Assembly: GCF_010119975.1 (NCBI RefSeq)
Contig: NZ_CP048222.1
Coordinates: 5,680,501-5,744,500, forward strand
Length of the DNA stretch: 64,000 bases
Source of the DNA: Rhodocytophaga rosea
GTDB taxonomy: Bacteria; Bacteroidota; Bacteroidia; Cytophagales; 172606-1
Direction of reading: 5' to 3'
Notes under the pieces: generated by a model
What the model was told of the DNA's origin: nothing
Seen by the model: only the letters and a program-made list of their open reading frames with translations
Databases searched by the model: none
Translations under genes and position numbers: made by a program
Shown here: positions 48,252 to 57,805 of the stretch, one piece after another
How positions within the stretch are numbered: position 1 is the stretch's first letter
Layout: every line of letters starts with the position of its first letter

Positions 48252-48740
48252 CTACATTCCTGAAGGCAGAATTACTTTGTCAATCACGTGGATTACGCCA
48301 TTGGAAGTTGGAATATCGGCTTTGGTAACATTGGCATTTTCTACCATCGCTTTGCCGCCTTTCAGGCTTACTTTAGCTTCTTTTCCGTTCACAGTTTTGG
48401 CTTTCTGGCCATCTTTCAGATCGGTAGATTTTACATTGCCGCTCACCACATGATAAGTTAAAATAGATACCAGTTTCTCTTTATTTTCTGGTTTTAACAG
48501 ACTTTCAAGGGTTCCGGCAGGTAAAGCCGCGAATGCTTCATTGGTAGGTGCAAACACGGTGAAAGGACCATTGCCACTCAGTGTTTCTGCCAGGCCTGCT
48601 GCTTTAATTGCTGATACCAGCGTACTAAAATCAGGATTTGCCGAAGCTGTTTCTACAATGTTTTTGGATTGTCCAAAAGAACTTGTCAGGCTTACACAAA
48701 AGGCGAAAGCCATGGCAACTAATAAGGTTACTTTTTTCAT
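48252..48740 (-). CDS. secreted fasciclin (FAS1) domain protein
   Basis: 162 residues: signal peptide 1-23 (ends SSFGQ), then one FAS1 domain with [49 protein letters not shown] and the closing [14 protein letters not shown]. Such domains mediate adhesion outside the cell. Its upstream region carries copy 1 of the two-copy block element, whose orientation faces this gene. Confidence 0.93.
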
Positions 48741-49343
48741 ATAGTTTTAATTGGTTTGTTAATAGCATCATAACAAGCCGGTTGGACTATTGTTTAAAAA
48801 TAAAGTTTGAAACAAAACAGGCATTTTGTAGTTGTGGCGGCTTTTATTCAAGTATAACACCATAATAAAAGGAGAACGGGTTCGCATATTCATACCAAAA
48901 TAAAAATAGAATGCGTGGCAAAACTAATCTTCTGTTTAGAGGTATTTCTCCTCCAGGGCCGGAGAGGCCCCGCTTTTACATCCGCCACTTCTATACAACC
49001 CACGCATAGCCTGTGCTGACCCAAAGGTTGTATAAGGTGGCTTCTGCAAAAGCTGTTGTTATTAACATGCAATTTGGTTTCTATTTCAGTATTAGTAGCC
49101 GGTAATTTAAAATTGCCTGTTCTTATAGGTTCAAGCACTCCTGTTTTTATTTGCTGCAACTATTCCCTATCCTTCCCGTAATTAAAAATCCATCAGGTAG
49201 TGTGTTGAATAAAGCTGGCTACCTGTAATTATATTTTTTAGTCATTTTTGTTATTCAGCTCATGATGAAAATGGCCTTTAGTGAATAGCTGCTGTTTAGA
49301 AACGGCGTTTAAATCAATTCTCAATTTTAATGTATTCAACCCT
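48741..49343. other. divergent intergenic region with block element
   Basis: 603 bases between fasciclin (minus) and the baeRF gene (plus). The central part 48892-49056 is copy 1 of the two-copy upstream element. The remaining parts are AT-rich with no exact -7 box. A minus-strand frame of 89 codons overlaps the element and is considered non-coding. Confidence 0.6.
48892..49056 (-). promoter_or_regulatory. upstream block element, copy 1 (facing fasciclin)
   Basis: Read on the minus strand it has block A (49031-49056), a 61-base variable middle, block B (48937-48969), a 28-base spacer and block C (48892-48908). Blocks A, B and C match copy 2 (56788-56967) at 24 of 26, 29 of 33 and 14 of 17 positions, all differences being transitions, and the B-to-C spacer is 28 bases in both. 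Its middle holds a hairpin: 48992-49000 with 49026-49034 (9 bp) plus 48984-48988 with 49037-49041 (5 bp). Block C ends 151 bases before the fasciclin ATG. Role unknown. Confidence 0.6.
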
Positions 49344-50540
49344 ATGACAAACCAGGAAATTCAGGAAAAATTAAAAAGTTTGAGTAACCAGTCGGCCTAT
49401 CCGTCGGTTTCCATATTATTACCCCTTGAAAACGAGCGTACACCTACTTTTGTAGCGCCCGAACACAAACTGAAAGTGCTGGTGCAGGAAACTTATCAGC
49501 GGCTCAGCAATATAGAAGATGAACAGGCCCTGCAAACCATCCGTCAGAAACTCGATAACATAGCCGAAAATATCAAGTTCGACAATGGTGATAAAAGTAT
49601 GGGCATATTTGTGTCGCCCGATCATGAAGAGGTAATCAAGCTTCCGTTTTCCGTAGAAAGCAATGTATTCATCGGAGATAATTTTCAGATCAGGGACCTG
49701 GTGCAGGTACGCAACCAGTTGAACGAATACCTGGTATTGATGATCAGTGAAAAAAAAGTACTGGCGCTCCGTGGCAGTGGCCCCAGTTTATCTGTCATTC
49801 AGGTTCCGGAAATGCCAGCCAGCATGGCCGAACAGGAAGTTCCCGGCGCTGCCTTGGATACCAACGAAATTGAAGATGCTATAGATACTTCTGTAGAGCC
49901 TGACGCTCCATCGCCCAAAGGCCAGGCCGACGAAGATGCCAATTCCAACCAGTCGTCTATTCAGGGAGTTAGCTATGATGAAAAACAAAGGCCCTATCTG
50001 ACAAAAATAGATCAGGCTTTGGGTAAATACCTGACGCAGGAAAGCCTGCGGGTGGTACTCGTAGGTGTAGATAAAAAGATCAGCCATTTCCTTAAATTCT
50101 CAAAAAATGAGAACAAGGTAATCGGAACTGTAAACGGCAATTATGATTATGCGCCTCCGCAAACCATTTCTGAACTGGTATGGCCGGTGGTACAAAATAA
50201 AATGCAGGAAGAAAAAGAAAACCTGCTTTCTGAATTACAGGAATCTGTAGGGCGTAATCTATATGTAAGCGGCATTGATGCTGTATGGAAAGCTGCCTTT
50301 GAAGGACGGGTACGCACTTTATTGATTGAAGAAAATTACCAGGTGCGTGGACTAATTCTCGATGAAGGCTACTCTCTGTCTTTGGACGTTCCGGATACTT
50401 ATAATGGCCCAGGCCGTATTGCAGAAGATGCTGTAGACGATCTGATCGAACTGGTGATGAGCAAGGCAGGAAATGTGGTTTTTGTGGAAAATGGAAAACT
50501 TGGAGATCATCAGCAACTGGCGGCTATTACCAGGTATTAA
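49344..50540 (+). CDS. baeRF-family protein (bacterial eRF1-like domain)
   Basis: 398 residues from the ATG at 49344; an in-frame GTG 21 codons earlier is not needed. The start ILLPLENERTPTFVAPEHKLKVLVQET fits the eRF1-like group; SEKKVLALRGSG and LVGVDKKISHFLKFSKN are core strands, and YVSGIDAVWKAAFEGRVRTLLIEE resembles the Rossmann-type third domain. An acidic linker of about 50 residues (around 165-215) is inserted in the middle. Bacterial baeRF proteins are predicted to act at stalled ribosomes or in stress; unproven. It ends just before a repeat and a strong terminator. Confidence 0.75.
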   Translation: MTNQEIQEKLKSLSNQSAYPSVSILLPLENERTPTFVAPEHKLKVLVQETYQRLSNIEDEQALQTIRQKLDNIAENIKFDNGDKSMGIFVSPDHEEVIKLPFSVESNVFIGDNFQIRDLVQVRNQLNEYLVLMISEKKVLALRGSGPSLSVIQVPEMPASMAEQEVPGAALDTNEIEDAIDTSVEPDAPSPKGQADEDANSNQSSIQGVSYDEKQRPYLTKIDQALGKYLTQESLRVVLVGVDKKISHFLKFSKNENKVIGTVNGNYDYAPPQTISELVWPVVQNKMQEEKENLLSELQESVGRNLYVSGIDAVWKAAFEGRVRTLLIEENYQVRGLILDEGYSLSLDVPDTYNGPGRIAEDAVDDLIELVMSKAGNVVFVENGKLGDHQQLAAITRY

Positions 50541-50640
50541 GTTCGTTGATAGTTGTTAGTGGGAACAATCTAATTGATTTAGTAAAGATAAAAGAAATAT
50601 ACTTTCTTAGGTTTTTTTAAAAATTAATAACCAAAAGCTA
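50541..50640. repeat. word-type repeat after the baeRF stop codon
   Basis: Right after the stop (50538-50540) the words GTTGATAG and GTTGTTAG occur, and opposite-orientation words (TAATAACC, CTAACAGC) follow around 50622-50645 before the terminator stem. The pairing is weak; it is listed as part of the same repeat group. Confidence 0.4.
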
Positions 50641-50643
50641 ACA

Positions 50644-50694
50644 GCAAAAAAATAACCCTATTCGCTTGCCACAGCAATAGGGTTATTTTTTTGC
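50644..50694. terminator. strong bidirectional terminator before rsmH
   Basis: A 19-bp perfect stem (50644-50662 with 50676-50694) with a 13-base loop, starting in seven A and ending in seven T, with more T downstream. It ends baeRF transcription and isolates the rsmH gene, which starts 93 bases later. Confidence 0.9.
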
Positions 50695-50787
50695 TTTTTT
50701 CTTTCAGTTTTATAAAAAACTATCACAAAATCTTATAAAAAACGTATTTTTAACACAAATAGCCACATAGGCTTTCTTTTTTAATTC

Positions 50788-51711
50788 ATGTCTACACAAA
50801 CATATCATCAGCCTGTATTACTTTCCGAATGTATAGAGGGTTTGCAGATTCAGCCGGGAGGGGTGTATGTTGACCTTACATTTGGCGGAGGGGGGCATTC
50901 CAGAGCGATACTTGACAAGCTGGAAGGAGGAAAATTATATGCTTTCGATCAGGATGCAGATGCCAAAGAAAATGCAAAAGAGCTCAGGCGAAAAGAATTT
51001 ACGCTGATTGAAGCTAATTTCCGGCATTTGCGTCGTTATCTAAAATTATACAACGTCCGGCAGGTAGATGGCATTCTGGCCGACCTGGGGGTATCTTCGC
51101 ATCAGATCGATTCGGCAGAACGGGGATTTTCAACCCGTTTCCAGGCAGACCTCGATATGCGTATGGACCAGCAAGCCAGCCTGACAGCGAAAACGATTGT
51201 AAATACCTATCCGGAAGCAGAACTGCATAAGATTCTGGGTATGTACGGGGAAGTAAAAAATGCCCGTACCCTGGCAGCAGCCATAGTAAAAGAACGTTTT
51301 TCAAAACCTGTACAAACAGTAAATGATCTGAAGAACATTCTCAATAAATTTGCCCCCAGAGGACGTGAAAATAAATATTATGCGCAGGTATTTCAGGCTT
51401 TGCGGATTGAAGTGAACGAAGAACTCAGGGTGCTGGAGGAAATGCTGGAACAAACGGCTCTTGTATTAAAACCGGGAGGCCGACTGGTTGTACTTTCCTA
51501 TCATTCCCTGGAAGACAGACTGGTGAAAAACTTTATCAATAAAGGCAAGTTCAGTGGGGAAGTAGAGAAAGATATGTATGGCAATTTTCAGGTTCCTTTT
51601 AGGGCAGTAAATAAAAAACCAATAGAAGCCAGTGAAGAAGAAATTGCCGGAAACAACCGGGCCAGAAGCGCCAAACTCAGAATAGCGGAGAGATTAGAAG
51701 ATAGTCAATAA
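50788..51711 (+). CDS. rsmH: 16S rRNA (cytosine-1402-N4)-methyltransferase RsmH
   Basis: 307 residues. SAM-binding VDLTFGGGGHSRAIL, AFDQDADA, GILADLGVSSHQID, the RGFSTRFQADLDMRMD block and YAQVFQALRIEVNEEL plus YHSLEDRLVKNF are all standard for RsmH/MraW. It methylates C1402 in 16S rRNA. In Bacteroidota this gene normally follows mraZ at the head of the division cluster; here no mraZ is upstream, the terminator being directly before it. Confidence 0.97.
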   Translation: MSTQTYHQPVLLSECIEGLQIQPGGVYVDLTFGGGGHSRAILDKLEGGKLYAFDQDADAKENAKELRRKEFTLIEANFRHLRRYLKLYNVRQVDGILADLGVSSHQIDSAERGFSTRFQADLDMRMDQQASLTAKTIVNTYPEAELHKILGMYGEVKNARTLAAAIVKERFSKPVQTVNDLKNILNKFAPRGRENKYYAQVFQALRIEVNEELRVLEEMLEQTALVLKPGGRLVVLSYHSLEDRLVKNFINKGKFSGEVEKDMYGNFQVPFRAVNKKPIEASEEEIAGNNRARSAKLRIAERLEDSQ

Positions 51712-51831
51712 TATACACCAAGGATAGAATTTAGACAGACAGAAGGTTATAAAGGAAAAATAAGCTTTACCCTATAATTCTGAATTATATTATTCAGTAT
51801 TTTTTAATGACCAACAATTAAGTGAACATAA

Positions 51832-52230
51832 ATGGCAACCAATACATTTAAACAGGCTGCAAAACCAAAACAACCGGCGGCAAGTCCACGGAAGAAAGGG
51901 AATAGTTTTTTTAAGCTGATCGAAAACTATGTAAAGCTGGGGATTATTTTTGAAAATGGCCTGCCGGTTCGCTATATTCCCTACATTTTATTTACGGCTG
52001 CCTTAGGTATATTCTATATCGGCAATATTCATTATGCCGAAAAAACAGTGCGTAAACTCGATAAACTGAAAGTAGAGGTAGATGATCTCCGGGCTGAATA
52101 TATTACCATCCGGGCCAGTTACGAGTATGATGGCAAGCAGTCGGAAGTAGCCCGTAAAGTAGCACCCATGGGATTGTATGAAAGTGCGGTGCCACCTTAT
52201 AAAATTATGTTGAAAAAAGAACAAGAATAG
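51832..52230 (+). CDS. ftsL: FtsL-like division protein
   Basis: 132 residues. A cytoplasmic basic head (about 1-45), one membrane helix (IPYILFTAALGIFYIGNIHY, about 46-65), and a short periplasmic coiled coil (VRKLDKLKVEVDDLRAEYITIRA). Position between rsmH and ftsI is that of FtsL, part of the FtsQLB division complex. Sequence of FtsL is poorly conserved, so the name leans on layout and context. Confidence 0.75.
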   Translation: MATNTFKQAAKPKQPAASPRKKGNSFFKLIENYVKLGIIFENGLPVRYIPYILFTAALGIFYIGNIHYAEKTVRKLDKLKVEVDDLRAEYITIRASYEYDGKQSEVARKVAPMGLYESAVPPYKIMLKKEQE

Positions 52231-52234
52231 TTAT

Positions 52235-52319
52235 AGATTGTAAGATTGTAAGATTGTAAGATTGTAAGATTGTAAGATTGTAAGATTGTAAGATTGTAAG
52301 ATTGTAAGATTGTAAGATT
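52235..52319. repeat. tandem array of an 8-bp word, 10.6 copies
   Basis: The octamer AGATTGTA is repeated ten full times without error plus five more bases, starting five bases past the ftsL stop. The region that follows (about 52350-52405) has several AATCTT words in the opposite sense, so the array looks like an expanded arm of an inverted repeat. Copy number of such arrays often varies by slippage. It lies 106 bases before the ftsI start. Confidence 0.9.
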
Positions 52320-52425
52320 TTCTATTAGCAGTTAGTTTTAAATGTTCAAATTTTATAATCTTCTAATTTTTGATTTATGAATATTTAAATCTTCTTAATT
52401 TTCTGAATGCTAAATCAATTCCGCT

Positions 52426-54531
52426 GTGAATATTAAGAATTCAATACTGGTTAGAGTCCGCATTGCATTTTTGCTGGTTGCCCTCTTTTCCATGGCAGTA
52501 GGAGCTAAAATGTTTCACCTGCAATGGGTAGAAGGCGATCACTGGCGGAAGCAGGCGCAGGCAAAAACCATTAATTTCCGCAAAGTAAAAGCTACCAGAG
52601 GTAATATCTATTCCGATGATGGAAACCTGCTGGCTACTTCAGTGCCTTTCTACAAACTGGCCATAGATCCCAGCGTGCCGGATAATAAACTATATAGAAG
52701 TGGAATCGATTCACTGGCCTACCTGTTGTCGGTACATTTTAAAGACAAAACGCCGGAAGAATATAAGCGGAAGATCAATGATGCCCGGCATGGTAAAAAG
52801 AAATACCTGATGGTAAATCCCCGCATGATTAACTACCAGACCAAAAAGATGATGGAAGATTGGCCGATTCTACGGGCAGGGAGGTACAAAGGAGGCGTTA
52901 TTTTTGAGCGAATAGACAGGCGTTTTAATCCATTTGTGGCCTTAGGTACCCGTACCATCGGATACGTGAGTCAGGAAAGCAGAGGAATCGTAGGTTTGGA
53001 AGCCAGCTTTAACCGCCAGCTTGCCGGAAAAGACGGACAAGCCCTGTTTCAGCGTATGGCCGGAGGTGGATGGAAACCTTTAAATGATGATTCGGAAGTT
53101 CCGCCAGAGCAGGGTTGGGATATTCAAACCACGATTGACATTAATCTACAGGACGTAGCCGAAGCCGCTTTACACCGGGCATTAAAAGACCATGAAGCCA
53201 ATTATGGATGTGTGGTATTGATGGAAGTAGCGACCGGAGAAATTAAAGCGATGGTGAATTTAGGCCAGCAGAAAAATGGAAACTATGCCGAAACCTATAA
53301 TTATGCCGTTGGTCAGCAGGGACGTACCGATCCTGGTTCTACTTTTAAATTGCCCACGATGATCGCCTTGCTGGAAGAAACCAGCCTGGAACCTACGGAT
53401 AGTATAGATACCGGCAATGGTACTTTCCGGTATAGTGGAGCTGTAATGAACGATGCTAAACCCGGGGGGTATGGAAAAATTACTGTTCAGGAAGCTTTTG
53501 AACATTCGTCTAACGTGGCCTTTGTGATGATGATGCGCGAACATTTCCGCACCAAGCCACAGCGGTTTATTGATTATCTGCAATCATTTGGGTTAACCAA
53601 ATCCATGGGTTTCCAGATGCTGGGCGAAGCAGAACCGTATATCAAACGTCCGGAAGACAAAACCTGGAGTGGTATTACCTTGCCCTGGATGGCCGTTGGG
53701 TATGAATCCAAAATCTCGCCTTTGCACATACTTGCTTTTTACAATGCGGTAGCCAATAATGGAAAAATGATCCAGCCTATGATTGTAAAAGAGGCCCGGA
53801 TTGCAGATAATGTAGAAGAAATGTACCAGCCCAGGGTGATCAATGAAAAAATCTGCTCTGACCGGACATTGAAGAAAGTGAGGAAAATGCTGGAAGGCGT
53901 AGTAGAACACGGTACAGCAAAAAGTATACGCAACAGCGATTATAAAATTGCAGGTAAAACAGGTACTTCCCAAAAATTGAAAGAAGGACGATACACCAGA
54001 GAGTATTATACTTCATTTGCAGGCTATTTTCCAGCGGATAATCCCAAGTATAGCTGTATTGTCGTAATTGATGGGCCTAAGGGTTACCGGCAGTATGGGG
54101 CAGAAGTAGCTGCTCCCGTTTTTAAAGAGATTGCTGATAAAGTATATGCCCGGGATATTCAAATGCACAAACAACTACCCCGTAAAGCCTGGGAGGATGA
54201 CAAAGGTATTTTTCCGATGGTAAAAGCCGGATACTTCGAAGACCTGCGGTATTTGTGCAATGAAATGGGTATTTCTAACCACACCCGTGATACCGAAGAA
54301 TGGGTAGTCGCCAATGTAAGCAACCGTTCTATCAGCTGGAAAAGCAAACAATACCTTCCCAACCAGGTGCCGGATGTAAGCGGCATGACTTTAAAAGATG
54401 CCTTATATATTCTGGAAAATAAAGGCTTGCGGGTGAATGTAAAGGGACATGGAAGGGTTATTTCTCAATCCCAGCGTCCGGGAAGTTCAGTGCTGAGAGG
54501 TAGCAGTATTGATGTGGTATTAGGCTCCTGA
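52426..54531 (+). CDS. ftsI: penicillin-binding protein, division transpeptidase FtsI
   Basis: 701 residues from a GTG start (no ATG fits). One membrane helix near 10-30, a dimerisation domain (about 55-225), and the transpeptidase domain with Ser305-x-x-Lys308 in DPGSTFKLP, SSN in EHSSNVAF, and Lys511-Thr-Gly in GKTGTS. A PASTA domain closes it (about 640-700, VPDVSGMTLKDALYILENKG). It crosslinks septal peptidoglycan. murE and the rest of the usual division cluster do not follow. Confidence 0.95.
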   Translation: MNIKNSILVRVRIAFLLVALFSMAVGAKMFHLQWVEGDHWRKQAQAKTINFRKVKATRGNIYSDDGNLLATSVPFYKLAIDPSVPDNKLYRSGIDSLAYLLSVHFKDKTPEEYKRKINDARHGKKKYLMVNPRMINYQTKKMMEDWPILRAGRYKGGVIFERIDRRFNPFVALGTRTIGYVSQESRGIVGLEASFNRQLAGKDGQALFQRMAGGGWKPLNDDSEVPPEQGWDIQTTIDINLQDVAEAALHRALKDHEANYGCVVLMEVATGEIKAMVNLGQQKNGNYAETYNYAVGQQGRTDPGSTFKLPTMIALLEETSLEPTDSIDTGNGTFRYSGAVMNDAKPGGYGKITVQEAFEHSSNVAFVMMMREHFRTKPQRFIDYLQSFGLTKSMGFQMLGEAEPYIKRPEDKTWSGITLPWMAVGYESKISPLHILAFYNAVANNGKMIQPMIVKEARIADNVEEMYQPRVINEKICSDRTLKKVRKMLEGVVEHGTAKSIRNSDYKIAGKTGTSQKLKEGRYTREYYTSFAGYFPADNPKYSCIVVIDGPKGYRQYGAEVAAPVFKEIADKVYARDIQMHKQLPRKAWEDDKGIFPMVKAGYFEDLRYLCNEMGISNHTRDTEEWVVANVSNRSISWKSKQYLPNQVPDVSGMTLKDALYILENKGLRVNVKGHGRVISQSQRPGSSVLRGSSIDVVLGS

Positions 54532-54704
54532 ATTTTTTGTAGTTACTCTCTTGAAAAATCAGCTTGCTATTCTGTTTGTCTATCCAAGTGGCAATGAACA
54601 GATGTCGTTGGGCAGTAAAAGTAAGCTTTTCGTCTACAAAGTGAGCCGACTATAGTACCAGGGTTGTCTTTTCTGTATTTTAGTGTAAGAAAGCAAGCAT
54701 CCCT

Positions 54705-55859
54705 ATGCAGACTCTGGATAATCCATTCATTTTCTCTAATCAGCCCAGCTACCGGATTGCCAGGCATTTGCTGTTCTGGGGCGTATGGTGGCTGTTTTTT
54801 ACAATTATTTACAGCAGCAAACCTATATCGGTAAGCCTGACAGAAATCCGGCTGTATAGAGTATCTTTTGGCATTTCAGCGGTGGAAGCCCTGTTATATA
54901 TGCCTATTCATATTATTTACAGCTATGCGATCATTTATTTTCTGATTCCCACTTACTTGCTCCGCAACCGATACCTAAGTTTTCTGGCTGGAGTGGTTAT
55001 ATTTACCCTTCTGGCAGCCATTATCTCTCACCTGATCACCTATCTGTTAATTACGCCTTACCGTGTGAGCCAGGGTACACCGCCACCTTTGAGCAGTTTC
55101 TTTTTCGGATTGATGGCAGGGCTCCGGGGTGGTTTACAAACCGGCGGTTTTGCAGCAGCCATTGTATTGCTGAAACATTTTTTTCTGAAACAACAGGCCA
55201 ACCAGCAACTAGAACGCGAGAAGTTAACAGCAGAATTACAGCTACTCAAATCACAGGTTCATCCGCATTTTTTGTTCAATACACTCAATCATTTATATGC
55301 CTTAACACTTACTAACTCGAGGCTGGCACCAGAGGTAGTAGTTAAACTATCGGGTTTGCTCAGTTATATGCTCTATGAATGCAATGCACCTAAGGTATTG
55401 CTCACTAACGAAGTAAAACTTATTCAAACCTATATCGAACTTGAAAATATGAGATATGGGGAGAGAGTGGATATTTCGGTGAATGTACGAGGAAATGCAG
55501 CAGATAAACTCATTGCGCCTTTACTGCTGATTCCATTTATTGAAAACAGTTTTAAACACGGCGTAAGCGAGCAACTTGACCAGGCCTGGATCAGCCTGGA
55601 TATTCTGGTAAAAAATGATATGCTGACTTTTAAACTTATTAATAGTACTCCTGAGTATGAAAAGCCATATAACCCTGAAAACAACCATTCGGAAAGAATA
55701 GGCTTGAAAAATGTGAAAAAGCGTTTAGATTTAATCTATCCCGGCCAGTATGAATTAAAAATAAGTGCGGAAGGAGAAATATTTATGGTGACGCTCAGCT
55801 TGACACTGGAACCATTGGAACAGTCAGCTTCGAAAGCAACGCCTGCCTATCAATTGTAA
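54705..55859 (+). CDS. LytS-type sensor histidine kinase
   Basis: 384 residues. Four N-terminal membrane helices (about 20-145), then a His_kinase domain with phospho-acceptor His188 in SQVHPHFLFNTLNHLYAL, the N box PFIENSFKHGV, and LKNVKKRLDLIYPG near the end. It pairs with the LytTR regulator 96 bases downstream. The signal sensed is unknown. Confidence 0.93.
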   Translation: MQTLDNPFIFSNQPSYRIARHLLFWGVWWLFFTIIYSSKPISVSLTEIRLYRVSFGISAVEALLYMPIHIIYSYAIIYFLIPTYLLRNRYLSFLAGVVIFTLLAAIISHLITYLLITPYRVSQGTPPPLSSFFFGLMAGLRGGLQTGGFAAAIVLLKHFFLKQQANQQLEREKLTAELQLLKSQVHPHFLFNTLNHLYALTLTNSRLAPEVVVKLSGLLSYMLYECNAPKVLLTNEVKLIQTYIELENMRYGERVDISVNVRGNAADKLIAPLLLIPFIENSFKHGVSEQLDQAWISLDILVKNDMLTFKLINSTPEYEKPYNPENNHSERIGLKNVKKRLDLIYPGQYELKISAEGEIFMVTLSLTLEPLEQSASKATPAYQL

Positions 55860-55955
55860 TACTGGTCACCAGTCATTTGCCAGGAGTCAGCAAGAATATA
55901 AAAACAAGCCATACTGATTTTTAACTAACGACTATTGACTGCCAACTTATTAGCT

Positions 55956-56678
55956 ATGAAAATCCGCTGTTTACTGGTAGATGATGAACCTCCGGCCTTA
56001 CAGGTGCTCCGGGCACATATAACGGCTGTTCCTATGCTGGAGCTGGTTGCTCAGTGCCAGAATGCCATTGCTGCCTTTGAAGTGTTACAAACCCAGCCGG
56101 TCGATCTGATGTTTCTGGATATTAAAATGCCTAAACTGCTGGGAACAGATTTTCTGAAAACCCTCCGTAATCCGCCTAAAGTGATTTTTACTACTGCCTA
56201 CCGGGAATATGCCCTGGAAGGTTTTGACCTGGATGCGGTAGATTACCTGCTCAAACCCATATCTCTGGAACGTTTTATTAAGGCAATTGCCAAGGTATAC
56301 AAACTGGAAAATCACGAACCGCTGCCAGCTCAGCCGAAAGAGATATATCATCCTGCCCATGAAGCGTTTCTCTATTTCCGCATCGACCGCAAAATGGTAA
56401 AAGTGCTCCTCCATGACATTTTGTATGTGGAAAGCCTGAAGGATTATGTAAAGATTGTAACTAAAAGTAAACAACTGGTGGCCAAACAAACCATTACTTC
56501 TCTGGAAGAAATGTTGCCGGGAGAAAAGTTTTTGCGCATTCACCGTTCCTTTATTATCGCTGCCGACAAAATAGAATCCTATACCCCACATCAGCTCACA
56601 ATTGCCGGCAAAGAACTTCCCATTGGCCGGAATTACAAGCACGAAATCTTCAAGAGCTTAAAACTGGCTGTAGAATAA
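55956..56678 (+). CDS. LytTR-family response regulator
   Basis: 240 residues from the ATG at 55956 (a TTG seven codons earlier is in the spacer). Receiver domain with phospho-acceptor Asp55 in LMFLDIKMPKL, TTAYREYALEGFDLDAVDYLLKP, and LytTR DNA-binding domain about 135-235 (YVESLKDYVKIVTKSKQLV, FLRIHRSFIIAADKI). Partner of the LytS kinase. The twin ferritin-like genes lie downstream past copy 2 of the block element, so they are possible targets. Confidence 0.94.
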   Translation: MKIRCLLVDDEPPALQVLRAHITAVPMLELVAQCQNAIAAFEVLQTQPVDLMFLDIKMPKLLGTDFLKTLRNPPKVIFTTAYREYALEGFDLDAVDYLLKPISLERFIKAIAKVYKLENHEPLPAQPKEIYHPAHEAFLYFRIDRKMVKVLLHDILYVESLKDYVKIVTKSKQLVAKQTITSLEEMLPGEKFLRIHRSFIIAADKIESYTPHQLTIAGKELPIGRNYKHEIFKSLKLAVE

Positions 56679-57097
56679 ACAATATAGATTTTGCGGAATA
56701 TACCTGTCAACTTGGTTCTAATAGCCCGACTGTTTATATAGTCTCATCTGTAATCATAGGAAAGAATATAAATGCGTATTGCCGATTACAGCTTTTGCAG
56801 GAGCCACCCTATATGTAATTACTAATAACCAATTACGAATTGTAGATATATCATCTCTCATTAGTAATTCGTAATTAGTAATTGATTAAGGCCTCTCTGG
56901 CCCTGGAGGAGAAGTGCTTCTACTCACAATATCAATTCTAATGAAAATATCATTTTTATCTTGATATTATTTCTCTCCTGCAATCTGGTTTTCAATTGTA
57001 GCCGTAGGTATGCACAAACATTCATGATCAGGTTTAATGCCAGGCAATGGCCTATTATGAGATGTATCAATTATTTTATTTTTTTAAAACTAAACCT
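56679..57097. other. intergenic region with block element copy 2
   Basis: 419 bases between the LytTR regulator and the ferritin-like operon. The middle (56788-56967) holds copy 2 of the two-copy element; the rest is AT-rich without exact -7 boxes. Confidence 0.6.
56788..56967 (+). promoter_or_regulatory. upstream block element, copy 2 (facing the ferritin-like pair)
   Basis: Block A 56788-56813, variable middle 56814-56889 (76 bases), block B 56890-56922, 28-base spacer, block C 56951-56967. The middle is unrelated in sequence to that of copy 1 but is again an inverted repeat: 56817-56826 with 56874-56883 (10 bp) and 56834-56841 with 56866-56873 (8 bp). Its words (TAATTCGTAATT) match those in the pyrR-pyrB spacer. 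Block C ends 130 bases before the ferritin-like ATG. Confidence 0.6.
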
Positions 57098-57805
57098 ATG
57101 ACAAAAAATTTGAAAAACATGAACAGAAAGGAGGCCAACCAGCCAAGCCCAATCAGCCGCCGACTGTTCTTCAGCTATGCAGGAACTTCTGCTTTAACCG
57201 CCACCTTGGTATTATCAGGTTGCAAAGACGATGAATCGGGAATGCCCGTAGATATGGGTGTGGATCTGGGAAGCGGAGATATTGGTGTATTAAATTATGC
57301 CTATGCGCTTGAACAATTGGAGGCCGCATTTTATACACAAGTCATCCAGACTAAATATAGCGGGATTACCGCTGAGGAAGAACAAATTCTGACTGACCTC
57401 AGGGACCACGAAGTAGCCCACCGTGACTTTTTTAAAGCAGCCTTAGGCTCCGCGGCGATTGCAAATCTGGAAGTTGATTTCAGTAAAGTTGACTTTACCA
57501 ACCGTACTAGTGTGCTTTCAACCGCTAAAACCTTTGAAGACCTGGGTGTATCAGCGTATAATGGTGCCGGACAACTCCTGACAGATCCAAATCTATTGCT
57601 GATTGCCGGTAAAATTGTATCGGTAGAAGCCCGTCATGCAGCAGCCATTCGTTCCCTGATCAATCCAAAATCGGCTGATTTTTCCGGAGATGATGTAGTA
57701 GATACCAACGGACTGGATGGGCAGATGTTGCCTGATAAGGTACTGATGCTGGCAAGCCCGTTTGTCAAAACTAAAATTAACGCAAGTAACCTACCTACAC
57801 CTTAA
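57098..57805 (+). CDS. exported ferritin-like domain lipoprotein
   Basis: 235 residues from the ATG at 57098 (an in-frame ATG at 57047 would add 17 residues ahead of the signal). The signal has twin arginines (SPISRRLFFSYAG) and a lipobox ending LVLSGCKDD. The four-helix bundle carries the diiron ligands Glu in LEQLEAAFY, Glu-x-x-His in HEVAHRDFF, Glu in TFEDLGVSAYNG and Glu-x-x-His in SVEARHAAAI. This is the Ferritin_2 (PF13668) type; function in desiccation or oxidative stress is inferred. First gene of a two-gene operon. Confidence 0.88.
   Translation: MTKNLKNMNRKEANQPSPISRRLFFSYAGTSALTATLVLSGCKDDESGMPVDMGVDLGSGDIGVLNYAYALEQLEAAFYTQVIQTKYSGITAEEEQILTDLRDHEVAHRDFFKAALGSAAIANLEVDFSKVDFTNRTSVLSTAKTFEDLGVSAYNGAGQLLTDPNLLLIAGKIVSVEARHAAAIRSLINPKSADFSGDDVVDTNGLDGQMLPDKVLMLASPFVKTKINASNLPTP

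Follow-up and report, generated by a model that had tools for sequence, protein, structure and literature searches.

The window analysed here is a stretch of 64,000 nucleotides of Rhodocytophaga rosea (contig NZ_CP048222.1, positions 5,680,501 to 5,744,500), in which an earlier note had recognised two copies of a three-block repeat, here called copy 1 and copy 2. We read both, with about even confidence, as members of a non-autonomous mobile element resembling a miniature inverted-repeat transposable element (MITE), which carries a ~110-nt RNA of a long hairpin and an H-type pseudoknot and would, once transcribed, serve as a module at the 3' end of host mRNAs. The structured RNA core is strongly supported, with compensatory changes above both shuffled and slid controls. 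Mobility is evident in other genera from inverted ends, 8-bp target duplications and empty sites, and slow change was shown for one inherited copy. Nearly all copies are intergenic, and what they have in common is how they relate to the gene on their 5' side.

A structured RNA core in a dispersed element

At least 27 copies, a number beyond chance, were found in the 8.98-Mb genome: 22 of type I (like copy 1), from a search with copy 1 that also returned fragments of others, and 5 of type II (like copy 2), from a search with copy 2 and its follow-up. Covariance model R1, whose seed comprised 20 of the 22 type I copies, regained all 22 at E values of 7.9e-12 or better and gave 12 further matches in the same genome (E 0.0009 to 5), namely type II copies, reverse-strand echoes and one weak match at 689765. 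The element is about 200 bp long and has no transposase gene; it is short and present in many dispersed copies, as MITEs are. A protein-coding core was rejected. Open reading frames (ORFs) of at least 60 aa lie over the core in only 9 of 25 copies, five in sense and four antisense, and a shared protein is therefore unlikely.

The type I core is a structured RNA of about 110 nt, in which a long hairpin, P1, is followed by an H-type pseudoknot in block B. The copies begin with ACAGC; P1 comprises three helices with small internal loops and an apical part, block A being its 5' strand and the middle a conserved hairpin. In the pseudoknot, stem S1 pairs GGGCC with GGCCC, and stem S2 pairs the S1 loop (CTCC in copy 1) with GGAG just downstream. 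Of 20 copies of the genome, 14 have C-G and 6 have G-C as the outer S2 pair, and GCCC/GGGC also occurs as S2 in R. aerolata. S1 occurs as GGGCC/GGCCC and AGGCC/GGCCT, and elsewhere as CGGCC/GGCCG, AGTCC/GGACT and AGCCC/GGGCT. Block B as a plain hairpin was rejected; both alternative pairings found support, and the pseudoknot was therefore adopted. Single-sequence folding of six examples gave z-scores from -2.37 to -6.26, and the core of copy 1 has a minimum free energy (MFE) of -52.4 kcal/mol (z -4.81). The MFE fold, in which pseudoknots are disallowed, deviates around block B in copy 2, where S1 is absent from it, and in locus L118. Inserted palindromes of the CCTGCC..GGCAGG type interrupt the apical part of P1 in three loci of genome G025 (L188, L189 and L190); L190 has them in the region of the pseudoknot as well.

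Covariation was measured in two alignments. Alignment A4 has 50 rows (48 distinct) from R. rosea, R. aerolata and six genomes of two other families, and was built with a model that held S2 and not S1. In it, 92.9% of 1659 cells were paired and 26 of 36 pairs had changed on both sides; such both-side changes filled 228 cells against 63.8 after shuffling, and none of 500 shuffles reached any of five measures, fractions that, here and below, are not probabilities because shuffling leaves the relatedness of the rows in place. When the partners were slid by one to three columns, 37.0-40.7% of cells paired. Alignment A5 has 55 rows (53 distinct), mostly from other families, and its model held P1 and S1 and not S2. 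Here 93.1% of cells were paired (34-43% in the slid controls), and 26 of 32 pairs showed both-side changes, in 344 cells against 97.5 shuffled (0/500). Both-side changes in S1 were limited to the outermost pair in A4 and occurred at two of its five pairs in A5.

Because the A5 model did not hold S2, the pairing of S2 in A5 is an independent test of the pseudoknot. The pair loop3-tail2 was G-C in 28 rows, C-G in 15, T-A in 3 and A-T in 2, so that all four Watson-Crick types occur; 48 of 52 rows were Watson-Crick against a shuffled mean of 21.6, a count reached by none of 5000 shuffles. The pair loop4-tail1 is nearly invariant (51 of 52 Watson-Crick), and loop2-tail3 was Watson-Crick in 39 of 52. 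With the rows of R. rosea and R. aerolata added, loop3-tail2 was Watson-Crick in 78 of 87. A cruder loop-tail test, based on the best complementary run, was weaker and went in the same direction, 10 of 2000 shuffles reaching its value. At mostly Watson-Crick pairs, G-U outnumbers A-C by 42 to 21 in the copies of R. rosea, an excess that points to the proposed strand.

Type II comprises L023, L026 (copy 2), L027, L033 and L035. These copies keep block A and have lost the 3' strand of P1, in place of which stands an AT-rich palindrome of the TAATTACG-type repeat. L023, L026 and L033 retain block B, L035 has a weaker form of it and L027 has none. We would see type II as derived, most of the hairpin having been exchanged for the AT-rich repeat. 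That its copies align with one another suggests common descent, and the full hairpin seems dispensable for multiplying. Dispersed arrays of the TAATTACG/TAATTCG type with 14-bp spacing, the same material as the type II middle, occur elsewhere in the genome (for example at G000:C1:7165385-7165497 and 6354101-6354195).

In the comparison of the two window copies, the coordinates and block identities given in the earlier note (24/26 in A, 29/33 in B, 14/17 in C) were exact on recheck, as was a little-conserved B-to-C spacer of 28 bases in both (12 of 28 identical); the A-to-B spacers measure 61 bases in copy 1 and 76 in copy 2. Its remark that only transitions separate the blocks holds for all nine differences between these copies, but not for the family, since in pairwise comparison of 20 type I copies 56% of the differences are transitions. 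The two middles, described there as different and both inverted repeats, do differ but are not equivalent, one being a conserved hairpin and the other an AT-rich repeat.

Mobility, distribution and relation to neighbouring genes

The only other Rhodocytophaga genome in the sample, G004, is probably R. aerolata, seven of seven stretches having been matched in a pattern scan of named contigs; genus g77 is probably Pontibacter. No flanking-gene pair is orthologous between the 27 copies of R. rosea and 15 of R. aerolata, the best cross match (46% identity) being between permease-like proteins. Counterparts of the window genes are scattered over several R. aerolata contigs, and no element was seen in the eight best loci matching them. 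The evidence for movement, which fits this absence of shared sites, comes from other genera and not from the window copies. The examination of G353 covered six loci that carry the inverted end GATARTCCGSAATCATACC, five of them two-ended and the sixth truncated. Four of the five have 8-bp duplications beside the inverted ends (TTAAATTT, TAAACTTA, AATCATAA and CTTATTTA), and in the fifth the duplication is off by one base (all by eye). An insert of G353 is missing between the same two genes in G777, where the target has diverged too far to be read. At one gene pair of genus g12, the site of a copy is filled in five and empty in four of 13 genomes, the rest not being comparable; the four empty sites hold a different short hairpin sequence in the gap (by eye). 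In Rhodocytophaga itself, closure of the element by inverted arms was not borne out, the arms being alike by eye and failing shuffle tests.

Inverted ends of a similar kind, with duplications, also bound short elements of genomes G303 and G025 that lack the RNA core, so that core and ends can occur apart. At L235, L236, L237 and L239 of these genomes we noted GATGATCCGCAAACATACC-type ends, short duplications and a differing hairpin interior, for example GATGCCGGC..GCCGGCATGAC.

The inherited copy of g12 allowed the rate of change to be compared within one locus. Over the ten genome pairs, identity is 90-94% in its core, 77-95% in the flanking genes, 58-91% in the gap before the core and 41-97% in the gap behind it. 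In close pairs the core does not exceed the genes in conservation, and between G334 and the other four genomes it does; in the most distant pairs the flanking genes fall to 77-82% while the core stays at 90-94% (Fisher p for G016-G334, 0.0013 against the upstream and 3.6e-5 against the downstream gene). G788 holds a second copy with 79% identity to the query, a divergence that argues against copies being homogenised.

Model R1 matched 8 of 390 genomes of the order; it gave 20 matches at E<=0.1 in R. aerolata and none in the other six genomes of the family. Covariance model R2 matched 36 of the 390 genomes, in 12 of 129 genera, with one match in the same family (G002, E 3.7e-6). Its best E value was below 1e-5 in families f1, f10, f12, f15 and f19 and only 0.0036 in f20. 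With 150 candidates scored, matches at E<=0.01 numbered 32 in G349, 7 in G353 and 9 in G234. In a sample of 395 genomes of the phylum, three matched, all of the same order and R. rosea among them, and no other order had a match to the covariance model. One distant match lies on a Pontibacter actiniarum plasmid; plasmids gave no match with copies of f19 and R. rosea as queries, and viral contigs no exact match to one pattern. The sequences of the apical hairpin vary or are replaced among clades. The earlier note would have taken the lack of a third copy and of conservation in relatives as weakening a regulatory role; there are many more copies, and they are conserved in relatives. In R. aerolata, two elements stand in tandem 254 bp apart (G004:C121:73843-74204). 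Pontibacter-like copies of G201, G349 and G382 (L116-L118, L121-L123 and L125-L130) share, by eye, about 100 nt more similarity 3' of the core, which ends in a sequence of the GATAGCTTG type, able in principle to pair with the GCTATC that precedes the core.

A known RNA family was rejected for want of a credible Rfam match: nothing in the window reached the gathering score, copy 1 had two matches only, far below that score (E 1.6 and 4.3), and seven loci had none at E<=0.5. A narrow literature search, outside paywalled work, found no title describing the element. A table of PMC2864571 lists a GUCCY-hairpin as a motif of Bacteroidetes and Proteobacteria.

Neighbouring genes were taken as mechanical ORFs of at least 110 aa. 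At 8 of 91 loci such an ORF extends into the core; by eye, these ORFs look spurious or begin within it. The gene on the 5' side has the direction of the element in 23 of 27 copies of R. rosea (p=0.0003) and 13 of 15 of R. aerolata, pooled 36 of 42 (p=2.8e-6), against a null of about one half by symmetry, lower if divergent gaps exceed convergent ones in length, rather than a measured baseline of the genome. In tandem gaps, sense exceeds antisense by 15:2 in R. rosea and 10:1 in R. aerolata (25 to 3 together), and by 21:7 in the others; convergent and divergent gaps stand at 8:2, 2:1 and 11:9, respectively. The stop codon lies a median 85 nt from the core in R. rosea, 48 nt in R. aerolata and 222 nt in the others. 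For the 3' neighbour the bias is weaker, with 17 of 27 copies in sense in R. rosea (p=0.25), 28 of 41 in Rhodocytophaga (p=0.03) and 59 of 90 overall (p=0.004). The neighbours look diverse and share no evident pathway, judged by eye from the sequences and with no family search run. Random orientation with copies inside genes, which the earlier note took as the mark of a plain dispersed repeat, was not seen; orientation is biased and nearly all copies are intergenic.

The two copies in the window

The features of both copies are collected in Table 1. From the end of block C it is 151 bases to the fasciclin ATG (48740) in copy 1 and 130 bases to an ATG at 57098 in copy 2, as the earlier note had measured; the longest ORF of the second gene begins earlier, at 57047. 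The stop codon of the response regulator gene lies 109 nt before the core of copy 2. By eye, no target duplication was recognised beside either copy. Elsewhere in the window, a tandem array with the 8-bp unit AGATTGTA occupies an intergenic gap (52219-52338) between a 132-aa ORF in an FtsL-like position and a 701-aa penicillin-binding-protein-like ORF (names by eye).

Table 1. Features of the two copies and adjoining genes (positions in the window)
Feature	Position	Strand	Remarks
Copy 1, type I, likely whole element	48892..49094	-	outer limits approximate; flanks alike among copies; ends TAATAC.../...GGTAT by eye
Copy 1, structured RNA core	48947..49056	-	125.0 bits with model R1 (copy 1 in R1 seed)
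Copy 1, long hairpin P1 (P1a, P1b, P1c, apical part)	48972..49053	-	covariation in helices 1-4 of A4 and 1-3 of A5
Copy 1, H-type pseudoknot	48948..48970	-	inside block B plus two bases before the block; S1 and S2 covary
Copy 1, stem S1	48966-48970 with 48956-48960	-	
Copy 1, stem S2	48961-48964 with 48948-48951	-	
Copy 1, block C (3' arm)	48892..48908	-	
Fasciclin-like gene, 3' of copy 1	48252..48740	-	name from the earlier note and sequence
Copy 2, type II, likely whole element	56751..56967	+	outer limits approximate; flanks alike among copies; ends by eye
Copy 2, block A (5' strand of P1, partner missing)	56788..56813	+	
Copy 2, AT-rich inverted repeat of TAATTACG/TAATTAG units replacing the middle	56814..56889	+	units also in dispersed tandem arrays
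Copy 2, pseudoknot region (block B)	56890..56911	+	by analogy with covarying type I; S2 possible with one wobble pair
LytTR-type response regulator gene, 5' of copy 2 and in sense	55935..56678	+	name by eye from sequence

Possible roles and related repeats

Copies lying between genes, mostly in sense and shortly behind the stop codon of the 5'-side gene, would be transcribed within the 3' end or intercistronic part of the mRNA of that gene, and the fold may then set the processing of the mRNA end or its protection from 3'-5' exonucleases. ERIC repeats are reported to act at the 3' ends of Yersinia genes, and NEMIS transcripts to be processed by RNase III; a similar role is taken as the most likely one here. 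The earlier note had offered an RNA or protein-binding module, or else a mobile miniature element with a replaceable cassette; each was partly right, and they are two aspects of one thing. An intrinsic terminator was rejected: a G+C-rich hairpin should be followed by a U-run, which is missing by eye (terminator scan not run).

Several observations weigh against the 3'-end reading. No U-run follows the core, the cores ending in GGAGGAGAAA.. or similar (by eye; terminator scan not run), and in R. aerolata G-U pairs are not above A-C (10 to 9). The 5'-neighbour bias is weaker outside Rhodocytophaga (32 of 48, p=0.03). Copy 1 itself lies in a divergent gap, as only two copies of R. rosea do, and cannot be the 3' end of its 5' neighbour, an exception to the proposed rule. 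As to the mobile element, inverted ends are significant in none of 42 Rhodocytophaga copies at p<=0.01, and in group tests 45 of 200 shuffles reached the observed value in R. rosea and 18 of 200 in R. aerolata. Constraint in place rests on the one g12 locus, where the gap behind the core is more identical than the core in some pairs and G167 has a 14-nt insertion in the pseudoknot, and single copies decay (L015, L022).

The element might instead be purely selfish, its fold serving only its own spread, for instance as a hairpin seen by a transposase or as a protected RNA, with no host role. Dispersed non-orthologous sites, inverted ends, target duplications, empty sites and 32 copies in one genome would all be expected of such an element. 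We consider this rather unlikely, since five type II copies lack the partner strand of P1 and core-less elements have similar ends, so that neither seems required for moving, since, in the most distant pairs, one inherited copy has changed less than the genes beside it, and since orientation is biased. That orientation also bears on paralogous trans-acting small RNAs with promoters of their own, spread by the mobile element and binding targets through their variable apical parts. A compact fold in many copies and apical hairpins that vary or are replaced among clades would suit them, and MITE-derived small RNAs occur in Coxiella according to a passage of PMC10969869. An independent small RNA, however, has no need of dependence on the orientation of the 5' gene, no conserved promoter was recognised beside the core (by eye; no promoter scan run), and the apical parts tolerate unrelated palindrome insertions (L188-L190); we consider this account likewise rather unlikely.

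Very improbable is a catalytic or ligand-binding RNA, a self-cleaving ribozyme or a switch, carried on a MITE: the pseudoknot, the conserved internal-loop positions and the sense orientation agree with it, but there is no credible Rfam ribozyme or riboswitch match, several unpaired positions vary among clades, and the neighbours are without an evident common pathway (the last two by eye). The view of the earlier note, an upstream regulatory element aimed at exported-protein genes, draws on the fact that both window copies precede a gene of the same direction and on the excess of in-sense 3' neighbours in Rhodocytophaga and overall. The shared direction is not general in R. rosea, where that excess is not significant, 10 of 42 Rhodocytophaga copies lie between convergent genes, and the downstream genes look diverse (by eye); the consistent relation being to the 5' gene, this view is extremely improbable.

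Among known repeats, the pneumococcal BOX is built of modular A-B-C blocks with an exchangeable middle; its host and its blocks are other than those of the element, and the likeness is one of description. We know of no structured RNA core in BrickBuilt of Porphyromonas gingivalis and of no covariation-supported pseudoknot core in QMITE2 of Coxiella burnetii, two MITEs that likewise resemble the element by description and not by sequence. Bacterial MITEs are described in a part of PMC2229807 as giving long stem-loops. Passages of PMC2229807 and PMC10969869 present the enterobacterial ERIC/IRU repeats as short, mobile, structured and intergenic, like the element, and as co-transcribed with their neighbours; at the 3' end of Yersinia genes, ERIC changes mRNA decay and its orientation matters. 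ERIC is set apart, by description, by its other host group and by a stem-loop from the pairing of its 5' and 3' ends (PMC2229807, in part), not a hairpin with a covarying pseudoknot. Correia/NEMIS of Neisseria is likewise a MITE, with size classes differing by an internal segment and transcripts processed by RNase III, but has TA termini (passages of PMC2229807) and lies mostly upstream of genes with internal promoters (a passage of PMC10969869); a pseudoknot is unmentioned in these passages of either source. BrickBuilt, from the same phylum, is a MITE with a minisatellite comparable to the tandem-repeat middle of type II (PMC4596501, in part; name from PMC10969869). Possible RNA-switch motifs are noted for BOX, and QMITE2 is placed mainly in 3' untranslated regions and given as the source of a small RNA (both in passages of PMC10969869).

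A broader proposal, which we hold only tentatively, is that the core may represent an undescribed class of functional pseudoknot RNA, with Cytophagales as its only hosts observed so far. Spread by a changing set of miniature transposons, it would repeatedly have been co-opted as a portable 3'-end module or as a site for ribonucleoprotein binding, and it might have a protein partner of its own or be catalytic. The pseudoknot core is recognisable in five families of one order, with one weak match in a sixth, while the ends and the top of the hairpin differ among clades. Filled and empty sites, sense and antisense copies, and copies with and without the hairpin make up a natural insertion set in which the joining of a mobile RNA module to host mRNAs may be studied.

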